25,062 bases of DNA, taken from a virus. Numbering within the stretch: position 1 is the first letter of the stretch; each line of letters opens with the position of its first letter. Position numbers and translations under genes: made by a program. Below are positions 15,612 through 24,994 of this stretch, in pieces. The stretch is taken from IMG/VR virus record IMGVR_UViG_3300028197_000148, positions 1-25,062 of that record; one strand, written 5' to 3'. Under the pieces are notes generated by a model. That model ran no database searches. It saw nothing but the letters and a program-made list of their open reading frames with translations, and had not been told where the DNA came from.

Positions 15612-17804
15612 CTATTTAATATTTTTAAAACCAGATCTTCTTATTTTTTGACCACCTATACTTCTTCTACGGCCTATATTTTTAAACGCACTGGTATACT
15701 TTAATTTACTTATTTTTTCTGAATTTACCAAAGAATCACCCTCTGATTCACGCCTTTTAGCATAACCTCTGTTAGATTGTTGTATTTTAACAAAAGCAAC
15801 TAAGGCACCAAACGTAACTAATCTATCTACGTTAAGTCCCGGATAGTATGCTAACATTTCTTTTAAAAGCATTGGGTCAGGTATCCTTTCTACTCCTAAA
15901 GTTTGTGACATAACATTACCCTCATCATCTAATTTTTCATCTATAGCTTCTCTTATAAATTCAATTGCATATGATATTAAATGACTTTTAAATAATGTAC
16001 CTGTATTTTTCCAACCATATTCCTGATAAACTGTTCTATTAGATCCTAAGTCTTTTAGAAAAAGTATCTGTTGTTTAGGTACTAAATATCTTTGTTTTTT
16101 TCTAGCTATCATGTGTTGAATAAACAATGATATGTTATTCTCAACAATTGTCCACGCATTGTACCATTCAATAATTAATTCTAATCTTTCATGAGTTTTA
16201 TTAATATCATCAAATCTACCACACCATGCTGCTACAATTTTATCACCCTCAATAAATATTTCTGTATCTCCTGCCTCTGTTGTTCTTGTAACTTCAGTTG
16301 CATTTTTATATATAAAAATACTACATAATGAATCTGATGTAGTTGTCTTACCTTCTGATACGGGGTCAATAGAACCATAATACTGTCCAAATTCAGGACG
16401 TTTACTAGCAGGTCTTTCCCAAACAACTATAGAACCAGTCTTGTCAGTCATTTTCTTATTTACTGGAAAGTCTGATATAGGAAGTTTTGAAGTTCTCTTT
16501 GCAATTATACCTTCCTGTTCTCTATCTAATTCTATTAATTCATAAGCATATTGTTTTTCTTCTATCTTCTTCATCTGTTTAGATAGTATACCTTGTGGGA
16601 ATACAGACGCTTTTCTGTATGCAAATGCTTCAGCAATATTTAATGGTTTCTGAGATATCCTTAATTGATATTGCTCAGGTCCTAGTTCTGCTTTCCATCT
16701 TTCCCTTTCTCTTACAATAGCTTCTATAGCTTCTTCTATTTGTGAGTTGCCCCAGTCATCAATGTAAGGTGGCATAGACCACTGTTCAGGAATAAATAAC
16801 CCTGCCATACCAGTAGTCCCTTCTGCATCTATAAGATCAGTTTGTACTGCATATATATCATTTGCAGTAGGATTCATAATCATTTCTTTCAAAGGATTAC
16901 ATTGTTCTAAATCTCCCACTGATCCTGCTGCAATAAATTGACCTGTTGTCATCATACCTGAAGACATAGCAGGACGCAAGTATTCATATGTCTGCATCAT
17001 CTTAGGAGCAATACCTGCTTCTTCATGAAAGAAATAAGTAGTAGGTCCACCTACACCAGATGTAGCATTCTTTTCAAATGATGCACCTTGTATCTTTGAC
17101 TTTAAACCTCTTGATGTTTTTCTATTACCAACTTTAACCTCTATTTGTTGTTGCCATAATAAAACCTTTTCAGGATTGCTTGGTCTATACCATGCAGTAT
17201 GTTCATTAAGAAAAGTTTTATATTCATCTAAAAATTTCCAAGATCCTTTGTCATTTATGTAATCTTTTAATGAAGCACCAATCTTGCATGTACTTCCTTC
17301 CTCAAACCAATAGGTATTAATAATCTTACCCATATGAAAATATGAAGAAGCTATCTGACGTTTCTTAAGTATAGCAACATGTTGATTATTTAGTTCTGCA
17401 ATAATTTCATATAATGCCATATGATATTGGGCATCTCTTACTTTTGCAAAACCATATTTTTTTTCTTCTTTATCAAAAATTGGTAAGAAGTTTAACCACA
17501 TATAGTAATCTCTAGTTAAATACCAGACTCTACCATTATTCTTATATATTGCCCCTTGTCTACATTTGTTCTTTTGATCATCCCAGTATGACATAAAGTC
17601 TTTTGATCTAAATGGTGAACTACAGTATAAACCTTCTTTGTTAAATCTTCTTGCTTCAGCATTAAAAATTAAACTTGTATTGTCAAATTCATACTTTCCA
17701 GGTTCTTTAAAAATGTCAAAAAGAAACTCATGGAAATCTTCATCAGAATCAAAAGTAGTAGTTACCCACTTATTGTTTTCATATGTGGGTATAGTTCTAC
17801 TCAT
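15612..17804 (-). CDS. terL: Terminase large subunit, TerL (730 aa)
   Basis: Packaging motor with ATPase and nuclease activity. A degenerate Walker A-like segment KKRQIASSYFHMGK lies at 147-160. Walker B with catalytic Glu is TTYFFHEEAG at 255-264. The RNase H-fold nuclease shows D480 in GSIDPVSEG, the ENN triplet at 555-557 (IVENN) and D660 in NVDRLVTFG, the three usual acidic positions. The C-terminal 45 residues are strongly basic (RRRSIGGQKIRR). The start overlaps the stop of the GroES-like gene by 8 bp, and the portal follows 15 bp downstream. A terminase small subunit is not obvious nearby; the 126-aa and 172-aa genes are possible candidates. No intron or intein was seen. Confidence 0.93.
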   Translation of the reverse strand: MSRTIPTYENNKWVTTTFDSDEDFHEFLFDIFKEPGKYEFDNTSLIFNAEARRFNKEGLYCSSPFRSKDFMSYWDDQKNKCRQGAIYKNNGRVWYLTRDYYMWLNFLPIFDKEEKKYGFAKVRDAQYHMALYEIIAELNNQHVAILKKRQIASSYFHMGKIINTYWFEEGSTCKIGASLKDYINDKGSWKFLDEYKTFLNEHTAWYRPSNPEKVLLWQQQIEVKVGNRKTSRGLKSKIQGASFEKNATSGVGGPTTYFFHEEAGIAPKMMQTYEYLRPAMSSGMMTTGQFIAAGSVGDLEQCNPLKEMIMNPTANDIYAVQTDLIDAEGTTGMAGLFIPEQWSMPPYIDDWGNSQIEEAIEAIVRERERWKAELGPEQYQLRISQKPLNIAEAFAYRKASVFPQGILSKQMKKIEEKQYAYELIELDREQEGIIAKRTSKLPISDFPVNKKMTDKTGSIVVWERPASKRPEFGQYYGSIDPVSEGKTTTSDSLCSIFIYKNATEVTRTTEAGDTEIFIEGDKIVAAWCGRFDDINKTHERLELIIEWYNAWTIVENNISLFIQHMIARKKQRYLVPKQQILFLKDLGSNRTVYQEYGWKNTGTLFKSHLISYAIEFIREAIDEKLDDEGNVMSQTLGVERIPDPMLLKEMLAYYPGLNVDRLVTFGALVAFVKIQQSNRGYAKRRESEGDSLVNSEKISKLKYTSAFKNIGRRRSIGGQKIRRSGFKNIK

Positions 17805-18606: not shown

Positions 18607-18860
18607 CCTTTGTTATTTTTTAAAAGTTTTTTAAAATCATCATAGTTTATTTGAAGAGTCATTTCATCATTTTGTCCATCTACAAATATATTAGTGTAAT
18701 CATCATTAAATTCATCTGTTGCTTCATGAAAATATTGTTTACACCAAATTACCTTATTTAAGTCTAACATAATTTTTGTTGTCTCAAATCTAAAATCAGT
18801 AGGTACTTTTGATTTCTTTGATTGAATAGCTAATGCTACTATAAATTCTTTATATTTCAT
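18603..18860 (-). CDS. Small unrecognised protein (85 aa)
   Basis: 85 residues, with Lys-rich ends and an acidic middle (HEATDEFNDDYTNIFVDGQN). It overlaps both neighbours by 4 bp (nuclease stop and 172-aa start), which strongly supports it as a real, translationally coupled gene. No motif identified. Confidence 0.65.
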   Translation of the reverse strand: MKYKEFIVALAIQSKKSKVPTDFRFETTKIMLDLNKVIWCKQYFHEATDEFNDDYTNIFVDGQNDEMTLQINYDDFKKLLKNNKG

Positions 18861-19675
18861 TTTTGATTATCTTTTAGCCACATTATTAATGATCTCACTT
18901 CATCTTTTAAATATGGTAGTTCATACATTTTTAGTCCTTCTAAAACTGGCTCTCCATTTATATGTTCATTAATTGGATACCCGTTTTTATCTTCTCCTAC
19001 TTGCTTAAATTTTACGTGTTGAATAATTAACTTACCAACCTTTAGTTTAGGATTATGCTTTTTAATAATATACGCATAAATACTTAATTGTAAATTATAA
19101 TGGTTAAGATTACAATCATCTAAATGATTCACAGGCCTAAACATTTTACTTGTTATTCCCTCCCAATTAGTAAAGCCTTTGTCTTTAATTTCTTTGTTAG
19201 TCTTGTAATCTGTTATGTTTATATAACCATTTACTATTTCAACTAAATCAGCTTGTCCACATATACCAGCAGATTTGAGATATACTAAATGCTCAGGATA
19301 AACGCCTTCTTCTAATTTTTGTTTTGGTGCTATTTTAAGTCCTAAATCTTCATCTACTAAAGGTTTAATTATAGGTACTTCAGTACCAAACTTTTGAATA
19401 GTTTCAAACTCTAATATATCAGCCTCTCTTTGATTATGGTAAAAATTACCTAGCTTTATTGCTCTATCTGTTTCACCATCCCATGCAGCTATTATTTCTT
19501 TAGGTGTCATACCATACCATTTTGATCTTTTATTTTTTGATGACTTTATTGCTTGTCCATCTCTATCAAATTTAGGTTTGAATTTACCTACTAAAGAAGT
19601 GACACTTAACCAATCTATTTTGTCTTGATCAGTACTTTCATAAACATGTCCTTCTTCTTTAAATATAATTGCCAT
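18857..19675 (-). CDS. PD-(D/E)XK nuclease, RecB/Cas4-like (272 aa)
   Basis: The core motifs are in order: GNFYHNQREADI with H80, AGICGQADLVEI with D143, INITDYKTNKEI with D156 and K158, and the QLSIY box with Q196 and Y200. This is the pattern of RecB-type PD-(D/E)XK exonucleases. I chose the ATG at 19675 (MAIIFKEEGHVYES) because a longer frame to 19708 would use a TTG codon and add eleven residues unlike the family, and because the upstream 29-codon ORF ends two bases before it. It likely processes DNA during replication, recombination or genome maturation. The stop overlaps the next gene by 4 bp. Confidence 0.85.
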   Translation of the reverse strand: MAIIFKEEGHVYESTDQDKIDWLSVTSLVGKFKPKFDRDGQAIKSSKNKRSKWYGMTPKEIIAAWDGETDRAIKLGNFYHNQREADILEFETIQKFGTEVPIIKPLVDEDLGLKIAPKQKLEEGVYPEHLVYLKSAGICGQADLVEIVNGYINITDYKTNKEIKDKGFTNWEGITSKMFRPVNHLDDCNLNHYNLQLSIYAYIIKKHNPKLKVGKLIIQHVKFKQVGEDKNGYPINEHINGEPVLEGLKMYELPYLKDEVRSLIMWLKDNQK

Positions 19676-19677
19676 AA

Positions 19678-19767
19678 TTAAAGTGTTAATGTAGTATACC
19701 ACCAACAACCTTCAGTGTTAGTTTTTACTGTTGTTACTTCTGATTTATAATAATAATTAATTTCCAT
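19678..19767 (-). CDS. Possible 29-residue microprotein between zinc protein and nuclease
   Basis: An ATG at 19767 opens 29 codons ending TAA at 19678-19680, two bases before the nuclease ATG. The product starts MEINYYYKSEV and ends EGCWWYTTLTL. It overlaps the end of the 108-aa gene by 11 bp in another frame and exactly fills what would otherwise be an empty 81-bp gap. Placement between stop and start codons suits translational coupling. It may also be only a leader that keeps ribosomes moving to the nuclease start. Length alone cannot prove coding. Confidence 0.4.
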   Translation of the reverse strand: MEINYYYKSEVTTVKTNTEGCWWYTTLTL

Positions 19768-20785: not shown

Positions 20786-21709
20786 TTATAAACTCATTAT
20801 CATATCAACCATATCTGGGTGTGGATAAATATCAGATTTACCTGTTCTCACATTACCATGTGTTAATAAACCTTTTACTTTACCAGCCCATGCATCCTCT
20901 TGAAAATCAAAACCTTTAGTAGGACCATACTTTTTGATATATTGCTTTAAACCTAATCTTATGTCTACACCATCTCTTTCACCTACCCACTTAATCCACT
21001 TTTCAGTAGCTTTAATTTGTTCTTCAGTGTAGTTATGCCAGTGTAGTTTCTTTTTAAAATGCTCAGGAAGTTCACATACTTGATCTTCCTGACATACTGA
21101 ACCTACATATGTCTGCATGTTTTTACTATCTAAATATCCCATGTTACATATTTCAATTCCTACTGAATGTCTGTTCATATAGCCAGATCCAGTTTTACCT
21201 AGATGAAATCCTTGAGCCCCAGTTGGAAATGCTTGAACCATAACACCGTTATAATCATCATTACCATTTCTATGGTTCACTCCCCCTAATACAAATTCTG
21301 TTGCAATACGCCCCCTACTATCTCTACCCCAGTGATCAATGCATCTATAAGGGTTTGCATTACCGGCAGTATGATGTAAAAATATATACTGGTTAATAAC
21401 TGGTCCCTCAACATATTCTCCTTTAGGTAAATAATGTTTATGTATAATTTGATCATAGCTTGTCTTAAACATTTGACCATGTATATCAGTATCTTCATCT
21501 ATTGCTATTGTCATAGCATTTGGTAGTTGTAATAATAGTGCCCAAGTATCAGCACCTACTATACCGTCAGCTGATATATTATGCATAAGTTGAAATCTTA
21601 TTACATGCTTTTCTGTCTCTCTTCCAAATATCCCATCTCTATTGATTAAAAGATTTTGTTGTAGTGTATGTACTTCAGGTCCACTATCACCTTTCTTTAT
21701 CATTTTCAT
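20786..21709 (-). CDS. N-acetylmuramoyl-L-alanine amidase with PG-binding domain (307 aa)
   Basis: Endolysin-type hydrolase that cuts the bond between MurNAc and the L-alanine of the stem peptide. Residues 6-60 form a PG_binding_1 domain (GPEVHTLQQNLLINRDGIFG, then ADGIVGADTWALL). Residues about 100-300 are an amidase_2 domain: H112/H113 in FLHHTAG, E186 in GIEICNM, H284 in LLTHGNVRTG, and K291/D293 in GKSDIYPHPD, giving the expected zinc ligands and catalytic Lys. There is no signal peptide, so release needs a holin; the small membrane protein at 22882-23070 is one candidate. It starts 1 bp after the 101-aa gene. A virion-associated role is also possible given the head-module location. Confidence 0.9.
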   Translation of the reverse strand: MKMIKKGDSGPEVHTLQQNLLINRDGIFGRETEKHVIRFQLMHNISADGIVGADTWALLLQLPNAMTIAIDEDTDIHGQMFKTSYDQIIHKHYLPKGEYVEGPVINQYIFLHHTAGNANPYRCIDHWGRDSRGRIATEFVLGGVNHRNGNDDYNGVMVQAFPTGAQGFHLGKTGSGYMNRHSVGIEICNMGYLDSKNMQTYVGSVCQEDQVCELPEHFKKKLHWHNYTEEQIKATEKWIKWVGERDGVDIRLGLKQYIKKYGPTKGFDFQEDAWAGKVKGLLTHGNVRTGKSDIYPHPDMVDMIMSL

Positions 21710-23445: not shown

Positions 23446-23754
23446 TTAATTATTAATATTATCTGGGTATGTTAATTGCATAAGATCTCTTATTTTTGCA
23501 CACCTCTCATATTCTTCAATATCTATATAGTACGCTAACATATTTTCAAATTCGGATAACTTGGGACCATTGTCAGGATCAAAAGCCAATACTGCTTCAT
23601 GACCATGTTTAAATTTATTTACCAATAGATCTTCAAAAGTAATTTGATTAGTTAAAACTAAAAATGAATTTTCATAAGCTGTATCAAGCAATATAGCATC
23701 AAATTGCATTTGTTCTATCTCAGTGAGACCACTATCTTCCTTTTTACTGTCCAT
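23446..23754 (-). CDS. Small protein with UVR-like motif (102 aa)
   Basis: 102 residues, acidic. The C-terminal segment FENMLAYYIDIEEYERCAKI followed by RDLMQL fits the UVR motif (helical hairpin with EEYExCAxIRD), used by UvrB/UvrC and ClpC adaptors for protein contacts. The N-terminal 60 residues (including FEDLLVNKFKHGHEAVLAF) are not recognised. It is the first minus-strand gene after the divergent region, so its promoter should lie in 23755-24003. A short protein-protein adaptor is the most likely role; this is inference from one motif. Confidence 0.65.
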   Translation of the reverse strand: MDSKKEDSGLTEIEQMQFDAILLDTAYENSFLVLTNQITFEDLLVNKFKHGHEAVLAFDPDNGPKLSEFENMLAYYIDIEEYERCAKIRDLMQLTYPDNINN

Positions 23755-23902: not shown

Positions 23903-23946
23903 ATAGGTGAGAGGTTATATAAAACTGATCCCCACCTCTTACTTGT
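23903..23946 (+). promoter_or_regulatory. Long hairpin in the leader of the first rightward gene
   Basis: The arms at 23903-23915 and 23934-23946 pair over 13 bp, three of them G-U wobbles, around an 18-nt loop that includes CCCC. There is no U-tract, so it is not a terminator. If transcription starts upstream, the RNA leader of the gene at 24004 would carry it 57 nt before the start codon; it could also be an imperfect dyad for a DNA-binding protein. Confidence 0.45.
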
Positions 23947-23966
23947 GGTTGGGTCACCCCCCGTAA

Positions 23967-23975
23967 TTATCCACA
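23967..23975 (+). promoter_or_regulatory. Sequence identical to the strict DnaA box
   Basis: TTATCCACA is an exact match to the E. coli R1-type DnaA box. It lies in the AT-rich end of the only strand-switch region in the window. Only this one exact copy was noticed. Confidence 0.35.
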
Positions 23976-24003: not shown

Positions 24004-24333
24004 ATGGTTTACTTTAGAAAACTAAACATCAATGAGTCTACTGGCTCAGCAACAATCATTGTGAGCTCTGCTCCAATGTCACAGAAACAAACTACTCTTG
24101 CTGGTTTGTCTGTGGGAACAAGAACTCAAGGAAACATCTCCTTTGGTGTTCTGTCACTAATAGACCCTGAAACTAATCAGGTGATGCGTAGTGACCACCC
24201 TACAATCAAAGCGTTAGCTGGGAAGCTGAACGTTGGGGATGAACTGAAGAACTTTAAACTCTCTGAGTCTAAGGTTGTCAACCTAACTACTGGTGAAGAG
24301 AATGAGAACCTCTTCTGGGTTGAACAGGTCTAA
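24004..24333 (+). CDS. Paralogous small protein A, unknown family (109 aa)
   Basis: 109 residues, no membrane segment and no Cys. The pattern suggests a compact beta-rich domain: VYFRKLNINESTGSATIIVS, then FGVLSLIDPETNQVMRSDHP, then GDELKNFKL, and a C-terminal strand LFWVEQV. It is about 72% identical to the protein at 24590-24928 over 107 positions. It is the first rightward gene after the divergent region and is followed by its own terminators. G+C is about 42%, higher than its paralogue and the leftward genes, and it uses more GTG/CTG codons, which may reflect strong expression or separate history. The leader lacks a Shine-Dalgarno sequence. A small single-strand-binding or OB-like fold is conceivable but not supported by any motif. 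Confidence 0.8.
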   Translation: MVYFRKLNINESTGSATIIVSSAPMSQKQTTLAGLSVGTRTQGNISFGVLSLIDPETNQVMRSDHPTIKALAGKLNVGDELKNFKLSESKVVNLTTGEENENLFWVEQV

Positions 24334-24340
24334 CCTGTAC

Positions 24341-24379
24341 AGGAGGGAAGTGTAACTGCTCCCCTCCTTTTCTTTGTCT
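24341..24379 (+). terminator. Terminator after protein A
   Basis: The arms AGGAGGG (24341-24347) and CCCTCCT (24362-24368) pair perfectly over 7 bp around a 14-nt loop and are followed by a T-rich tract TTTCTTTGT. It begins 7 nt past the stop codon. Confidence 0.7.
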
Positions 24380-24438
24380 ACCGCTCATGTGTAGCTCTCC
24401 ACTTGGTCAGGAATGAATCAGGTGTAACTACCGTGCAG

Positions 24439-24486
24439 ACACACACAACACCACAAGGCTGATGCTTTGTGTGTGTTGTTTTTTTT
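24439..24486 (+). terminator. Second terminator between the paralogues
   Basis: The arms ACACACACAA (24439-24448) and TTGTGTGTGT (24467-24476) pair over 10 bp around an 18-nt loop. TG and then eight T follow. Two terminators within 150 bp would insulate gene B from transcription of gene A. Confidence 0.75.
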
Positions 24487-24496
24487 CTTTATGGAC

Positions 24497-24524
24497 TGGT
24501 CATACATTCTTATAGCTTTATAAT
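24497..24524 (+). promoter_or_regulatory. Possible sigma70-type promoter for protein B
   Basis: TATAAT at 24519-24524 with TGGTCA (four of six matches to TTGACA) at 24497-24502 and a 16-bp spacer, about 65 nt before the ATG at 24590. Immediately upstream is the second terminator, so a promoter is needed here. TAGCTTTA at 24513-24520 is a near match to TAnnTTTG as an alternative. Confidence 0.35.
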
Positions 24525-24533
24525 ATAACTCTG

Positions 24534-24552
24534 ACTGCTCCCTTCCTTTCTT
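24534..24552 (+). repeat. Short repeat upstream of paralogue B, related to 24355-24373
   Basis: ACTGCTCCCTTCCTTTCTT here closely matches ACTGCTCCCCTCCTTTTCTT at 24355-24374. The earlier copy forms part of the terminator hairpin of gene A. It is either a remnant of the gene duplication or a shared leader/trailer element. Confidence 0.5.
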
Positions 24553-24589
24553 ATGCAAATATTTATTAATCATTAATTAAAATTAAATT

Positions 24590-24928
24590 ATGGAAACAAA
24601 TTCAGTTTATTTTAGAAAGCTTAACATCAATGACAACACAGGTAGTGCAACAATAATTGCATCAGATGTACCATTGATACAGAAAGCAACTACATTAGCA
24701 GGTGTTAATGTAGCAACAAGAACACAGAACAACATTACATTTGGCGTATTAAGCCTAATAGACCCAGAGACTGGACAGGTAATGCGTTCTGAACATCCAA
24801 CCATCAAGCAGTTAGCTGCTAAACTTAACAGGGGTGATGAGATGAAAGGTTTCAAACTATCTGACAATCCAGTGTTAAACCTAACATCTGGAGAAGAAAC
24901 AGGTATGTTTTGGATAGAAGCAGTGTAA
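24590..24928 (+). CDS. Paralogous small protein B, unknown family (112 aa)
   Basis: 112 residues, about 72% identical to protein A. Shared strings include VYFRKLNIN, TGSATII, FGVLSLIDPET, QVMRS, HPTIK and GDE. It has four extra N-terminal residues (METN) and ends in MFWIEAV. Differences concentrate at surface-type positions (Glu/Asp, Lys/Asn), suggesting the same fold is retained. Codon use is more AT-rich than in A although the proteins are close, so synonymous sites have diverged strongly. It has its own terminator. Function unknown; two maintained copies could form a heteromer or differ in timing. Confidence 0.8.
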   Translation: METNSVYFRKLNINDNTGSATIIASDVPLIQKATTLAGVNVATRTQNNITFGVLSLIDPETGQVMRSEHPTIKQLAAKLNRGDEMKGFKLSDNPVLNLTSGEETGMFWIEAV

Positions 24929-24951: not shown

Positions 24952-24994
24952 CTACAAATCTAGTGTAAAAGCTAGGTTTGTAGTTGTTTTTTTT
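24952..24994 (+). terminator. Strong terminator after protein B
   Basis: The arms CTACAAATCTAG (24952-24963) and CTAGGTTTGTAG (24972-24983) pair over 12 bp with one T-G wobble around an 8-nt loop, followed by TTGTTTTTTTT. Confidence 0.9.

Follow-up and report, generated by a model that had tools for sequence, protein, structure and literature searches.

Among duplicated genes already described, those most comparable to the locus studied here are the two repL copies of p-crAssphage (PMC10136315) and the tandem gene 74 of crAss-like phages (PMC7886860). A phage protein that controls its own amount is T4 gp32: this single-stranded DNA-binding protein (SSB) acts as repressor of its own mRNA, by way of a leader pseudoknot and UUAAA repeats (PMC535899). 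We now turn to a pair of adjacent paralogous genes, A and B, found at the right end of a 25,062-base window, by which we mean the whole stretch of DNA analysed. The window is a complete IMG/VR virus record but covers part of a larger phage, because a relative of the same lineage (G001) is 101 kb long; phages related to the window span about 80–118 kb. The phage is marine. Its terminase large subunit gene (TerL; 15612–17804, minus strand) encodes a protein 25–26% identical to the terminases of Flavobacterium phages and Crassvirales and, judged by this terminase likeness, the phage resembles the crAss-like group.

The pair and its relatives

Gene A (24004–24333, plus strand) encodes a 109-residue OB-like protein and gene B (24590–24928, plus strand) its 112-residue paralogue, both as intact open reading frames. 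The earlier note had put their identity at about 72% by hand alignment; BLASTP gives 77 identical positions of 108 (71%), with an E-value of 4e-57 that makes chance similarity untenable. The two copies also differ in composition as that note described, in G+C (A 43%, B 38%) and at third codon positions (GC3; A 42%, B 29%), and both lie above the 33% G+C of the same-lineage 101-kb relative. A is the richer in G+C in all 13 pairs tested, and a gap kept this consistently excludes recent import; perhaps it reflects selection on codon use or expression. Against relatives, dN/dS is 0.08–0.28 for A and 0.04–0.29 for B, and both genes are under purifying selection. The proteins are mildly acidic (pI 5.8 and 5.3) and end in FWVEQV (A) and FWIEAV (B), the acidic tip of SSBs being absent from both.

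All large open reading frames of the window, including TerL and the packaging and virion genes, lie on the minus strand, and A and B are its only clear rightward genes, so that their orientation opposite to those genes holds as first described. Two of the minus-strand genes have recognizable products: an endolysin-like protein with a peptidoglycan-binding domain and Amidase_2 (20786–21709), and a PD-(D/E)XK-type exonuclease-like protein encoded next to the terminase block (18857–19708, listed start TTG). A conserved gene for a 102-residue protein (23446–23754, minus strand) heads the opposite arm and serves as a landmark for the locus in relatives; in most lineages read, its homologue adjoins the family gene. 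The family gene itself comes first in the arm that runs against the virion genes in the relatives read, and in the 101-kb relative the same rightward arm continues downstream with DnaB, Sak4, primase, DNA polymerase and recombination nucleases. Early expression of A and B is plausible from this arm and from an upstream motif that they have in common with other units.

Successive IMG/VR scans for the A/B family returned 41, then 30, then 106 loci. No credible match was found in Pfam, PHROGs, NCBIfam or PDB sequences, and the sub-threshold library matches are scattered and contradict one another. Relatives were likewise not found by tblastn in annotated phage records, in 85,000 bacterial and archaeal genomes or, at full length, in an A2 profile search of phi14:2, crAss001, cr55_1 and Fpv20. 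The family is thus still without a name in curated libraries, as the earlier note had it, but structural models narrow it to OB-like proteins (see below).

Within the window's lineage, 29 contigs hold both A and B intact. Another three contigs are truncated by their own ends, one of them retaining the last 16 codons of A, and no decayed copy of either gene was seen. In a second lineage the upstream copies and the downstream copies are that lineage's own, each set forming a supported clade; two loci (L138 and L139) pair one normal copy with a very diverged one, 38–39% identical to B; and a single copy occurs in records of 96, 92, 82 and 113 kb, although such records may be incomplete. Extra copies therefore recur across lineages that differ in copy state. 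In the family tree, A and B fall into separate clades, the A rows as a starred clade of 15 rows (98/97) and the B rows as one side of a branch (92/80, not starred), while A plus B together make up another branch (92/98). A single ancestral duplication behind all pairs was considered and set aside: in topology tests, joining A and the other lineage's upstream copy in one clade was marginally rejected (p 0.045), while the remaining pairings of copies were not (p 0.10–0.19). Separate duplications in different lineages are favoured by these comparisons, but not proven.

That two copies are maintained is borne out by their integrity in relatives. The accompanying argument from a compact genome is weak, because the A–B interval of relatives measures about 0.2 to 0.6 kb and often holds extra small genes. 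Small accessory reading frames occupy this interval in four of the loci (L088 5445–6000, L079 5637–6000, L107 50–780 and L139 6328–6969), often followed by GTGTGTAACAGCACAC-type terminators, and one of them (DAQDAWNLYSISPELTCTCDEVHTC...) is common to two lineages. The interval is possibly a spot for cassette insertion.

Sequence elements flanking each copy

A 24-nt motif with consensus AAACTGCTCCCCACCTATAATTTG (CTGCTCCCC-type) precedes 35 of the 36 examined family members by 44–86 nt, in all lineages; the single member missed by the motif pattern, L167, has a variant of it. Matrix and pattern scans place the conserved motif in the window as AAACTGATCCCCACCTCTTACTTG 82 nt before A (23922–23945, plus strand) and as TGACTGCTCCCTTCCTTTCTTATG 58 nt before B (24532–24555, plus strand). 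A third match (24353–24376, plus strand) is ambiguous in nature, because it overlaps the first terminator-like hairpin of A. With one mismatch allowed, the window holds three motif sites against 0.03 expected. When five genomes were scanned at a cut-off of 15 bits, using a matrix trained without the genomes tested, 17 sites exceeded the cut-off, 16 on the strand of the family gene and one opposite, whereas shuffled genomes gave 0–2 in total. One site lies 99 nt upstream of the Sak4 start in the 101-kb relative (54065), with a similar site in G008 (61414), and some further sites away from the family stand at the head of rightward genes. Such a preference for one strand points to a promoter or to an element linked to transcription.

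The claim that each copy has its own promoter is accordingly carried by the motif and not by generic signals: sigma-70 promoters number 7 in the window against 5.1 expected from shuffles, which is no excess. We do not claim that a virion RNA polymerase reads the motif, as the phi14:2 RNA polymerase proteins (one of them truncated) had no detectable sequence similarity to the proteins of the 101-kb relative. The motif offers a testable candidate early or middle promoter for such phages.

Between the motif and the start of A lies a leader hairpin (23944–23975, plus strand), TGTGG..CCACA with inner GGGTCACCC, visible as conserved columns. Single-sequence folds of leaders have a mean z of −1.9; they are strong in the one-copy lineage and weak in the A lineage (z −1.35), and the leader of the upstream copy in the second lineage's pair folds differently. 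RNAalifold recovers only two pairs from the leader alignment, probably since the alignment misplaces the stems, and a search of Rfam returned nothing except a chance match to U6atac.

Downstream, each gene has a terminator of its own, in agreement with the earlier note. Gene A is followed by two terminator-like hairpins with T-runs, the first with a loop centred on TGTAA (24341–24368, plus strand; −14.9 kcal/mol for 24334–24375) and the second a strong one (24445–24479, plus strand; −22.7 kcal/mol for 24425–24490). Scan and fold place after B a terminator-like hairpin with a 12-bp stem, the conserved loop TGTAAAAG at 24964–24971 and a T-run (24952–24983, plus strand). The insulation of the two units is real and conserved. 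Of 76 distinct regions 3′ of the stop codon, 43 have a hairpin whose loop reads TGTAAnAG or closely resembles it, on a stem of at least five pairs and usually with a T-run. Across 22 distinct hairpins, both sides of the stem vary at each of its nine pairs, 97.5% of cells are paired and the loop TGTAA(A/C)AG is constant; the stem covariation score is 1.02, compared with 0.28 for shuffled and at most 0.27 for slid versions, figures inflated by preselection of the hairpins for a short stem (at least five pairs). The loop 8-mer is frequent in five genomes and the window, but stems of at least nine pairs number only one or two per genome, and nearly all long-stem TGTAA(A/C)AG hairpins with a T-run lie at the A/B-family locus. 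Since termination does not need a conserved loop, a binding partner is possible.

Predicted fold and candidate functions

AlphaFold2 models of B and A were built from different alignments (32 and 50 sequences) and reach pLDDT 89.9 and 87.9, respectively. Both consist of beta strands with one helix ahead of the last two strands, a predicted OB-like fold. In Foldseek searches of the PDB, SSB and PriB chains come top for both models: the best match for B is 4dam, the small SSB of S. coelicolor (E 0.013, probability 0.95, TM about 0.33), and for A it is 2ccz, PriB with single-stranded DNA (E 0.031, TM 0.30). These neighbours are weak throughout, with E never below 0.001 and TM-scores of 0.3–0.4; VIA-align returns mixed OB-fold proteins, all under Z 5, and SSBs score no better than general OB folds. 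The sole strong structural match, in BFVD, is the 95-residue A0A7S9XDU8 of Virus NIOZ-UU157 (E 1.2e-9, TM 0.71/0.82, 34% identity), by its strength a likely member of the family; below it, the named viral matches are mostly phage SSBs. The SSB profile PF00436 does not match A or B in Pfam, and an hhalign comparison of the A/B profile with gammaproteobacterial SSBs gave 0.2%, the profiles being low in diversity. Binding of nucleic acid, either single-stranded DNA or RNA, is the most likely reading of the models.

We tentatively regard A and B as two diverged, functional copies of an early or middle phage gene whose small, OB-fold-like and presumably abundant product most likely coats or otherwise handles single-stranded DNA (or RNA) while the phage replicates, a reading somewhat short of an even chance. 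Each copy would be a short transcription unit composed of a dedicated promoter-like element, one gene and a terminator, and two such units would raise the yield of protein, or supply two specialised forms with distinct timing or partners; nucleic-acid binding, early expression and what the two copies are for are what we infer here. The top Foldseek ranks of SSB and PriB, the replication arm, the lack of a PF00436 SSB in 13 relatives, the motif before Sak4 and the retained copies support this reading. It is weakened by the weak structural matches, the failed SSB profile, the missing acidic tail and a second candidate in the same genomes.

That candidate is P0001, a very conserved family of 223 residues encoded between Sak4 and primase (54873–55541 in the 101-kb relative, 3873–4541 in L157) and ending in an acidic GS/DDFDL-type tip. 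It is found at 494 IMG/VR loci, compared with 106 for the A/B family. Profile searches of Pfam, PHROGs and PDB gave no match to P0001, and kinship with the syntenic gp032 of phi14:2 was rejected, similarity being absent. L157 also encodes (656–1168) a 171-residue phage protein whose helix-turn-helix resembles DnaA domain IV (PF08299, E 4e-7, slightly under the curated cut-off). From its conservation, position and acidic tip, P0001 may be the replicative SSB and, with this SSB-like tail in the same genomes, a replicative-SSB role for A and B is contested.

A and B could instead be OB-like regulators that bind their own mRNA leaders or loop hairpins, or that act early in infection on transcription or the host, with P0001 as the replicative SSB. 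P0001 occupies the usual SSB slot and has the acidic tip, the fixed loop TGTAA(A/C)AG on covarying stems is essentially restricted to this locus, a structured leader precedes the first copy, and T4 gp32 shows that an SSB can repress its own mRNA (PMC535899). However, the 22 hairpins were chosen for stems of at least five pairs and AT-rich leaders are common in AT-rich genomes, and we consider this alternative unlikely.

It is similarly unlikely that the proteins do not bind nucleic acid at all and are small beta-barrels of another kind, for example a host-takeover protein or a minor component of the virion. Every structural match to a named protein falls below threshold and a family match is entirely lacking, but A and B lie on the strand opposite to the virion genes, both models independently rank single-stranded DNA-binding OB proteins first, and the control motif also precedes Sak4.

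We think it rather improbable that A and B are themselves the replicative SSB of this phage clade, with another role for P0001. PF00436 SSBs were not found in 13 relatives, the replication gene set read in the 101-kb relative is otherwise full, the models are OB-like, and a protein required in bulk would be well served by monocistronic units that open the arm. In contrast, A and B have no acidic C-terminal tip, and P0001 is the more widespread family and sits with Sak4 and primase. Least probable is control by A and B of their own synthesis, in which the proteins would recognise the TGTAA(A/C)AG loop and the leader of the first gene and each copy would be a self-limiting unit.

Comparison with known systems

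A and B represent an unnamed conserved family heading the replication arm of a widespread aquatic group of crAss-like phages. Several lineages retain duplicates, together with a cis set composed of a directional upstream motif and a covarying fixed-loop hairpin. If the proteins do bind single-stranded DNA or RNA, the locus would be a compact system for studying the reasons for maintaining two SSB-like proteins in one phage and the control of their amounts.

The likeness to SSBs (PF00436), and to the small SSB 4dam in particular, consists of similar size, an OB-like beta topology with one helix and the best Foldseek rank, but A and B have no sequence or profile match to them, a TM-score of about 0.33 and no acidic C-terminal tip. 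PriB (2ccz, 1v1q) is likewise a single small OB-like domain without an acidic tail and ranks top for the A model; it differs in that a sequence match is absent and the rmsd is around 10 Å over the alignment, and PriB is a primosome protein of the host, not of a phage. The comparison with T4 gp32 is proposed as an analogy only, that of a single-stranded DNA-binding protein whose mRNA has a structured 5′ leader and is AU-rich in its initiation region; gp32 is single-copy and has an acidic domain, and no sequence similarity to it is claimed. A0A7S9XDU8 of Virus NIOZ-UU157, the likely family member, is an uncharacterised protein of an unclassified virus. The repL and gene 74 duplicates of crAss-like phages concern other genes, but they share with A and B the retention of duplicate copies.
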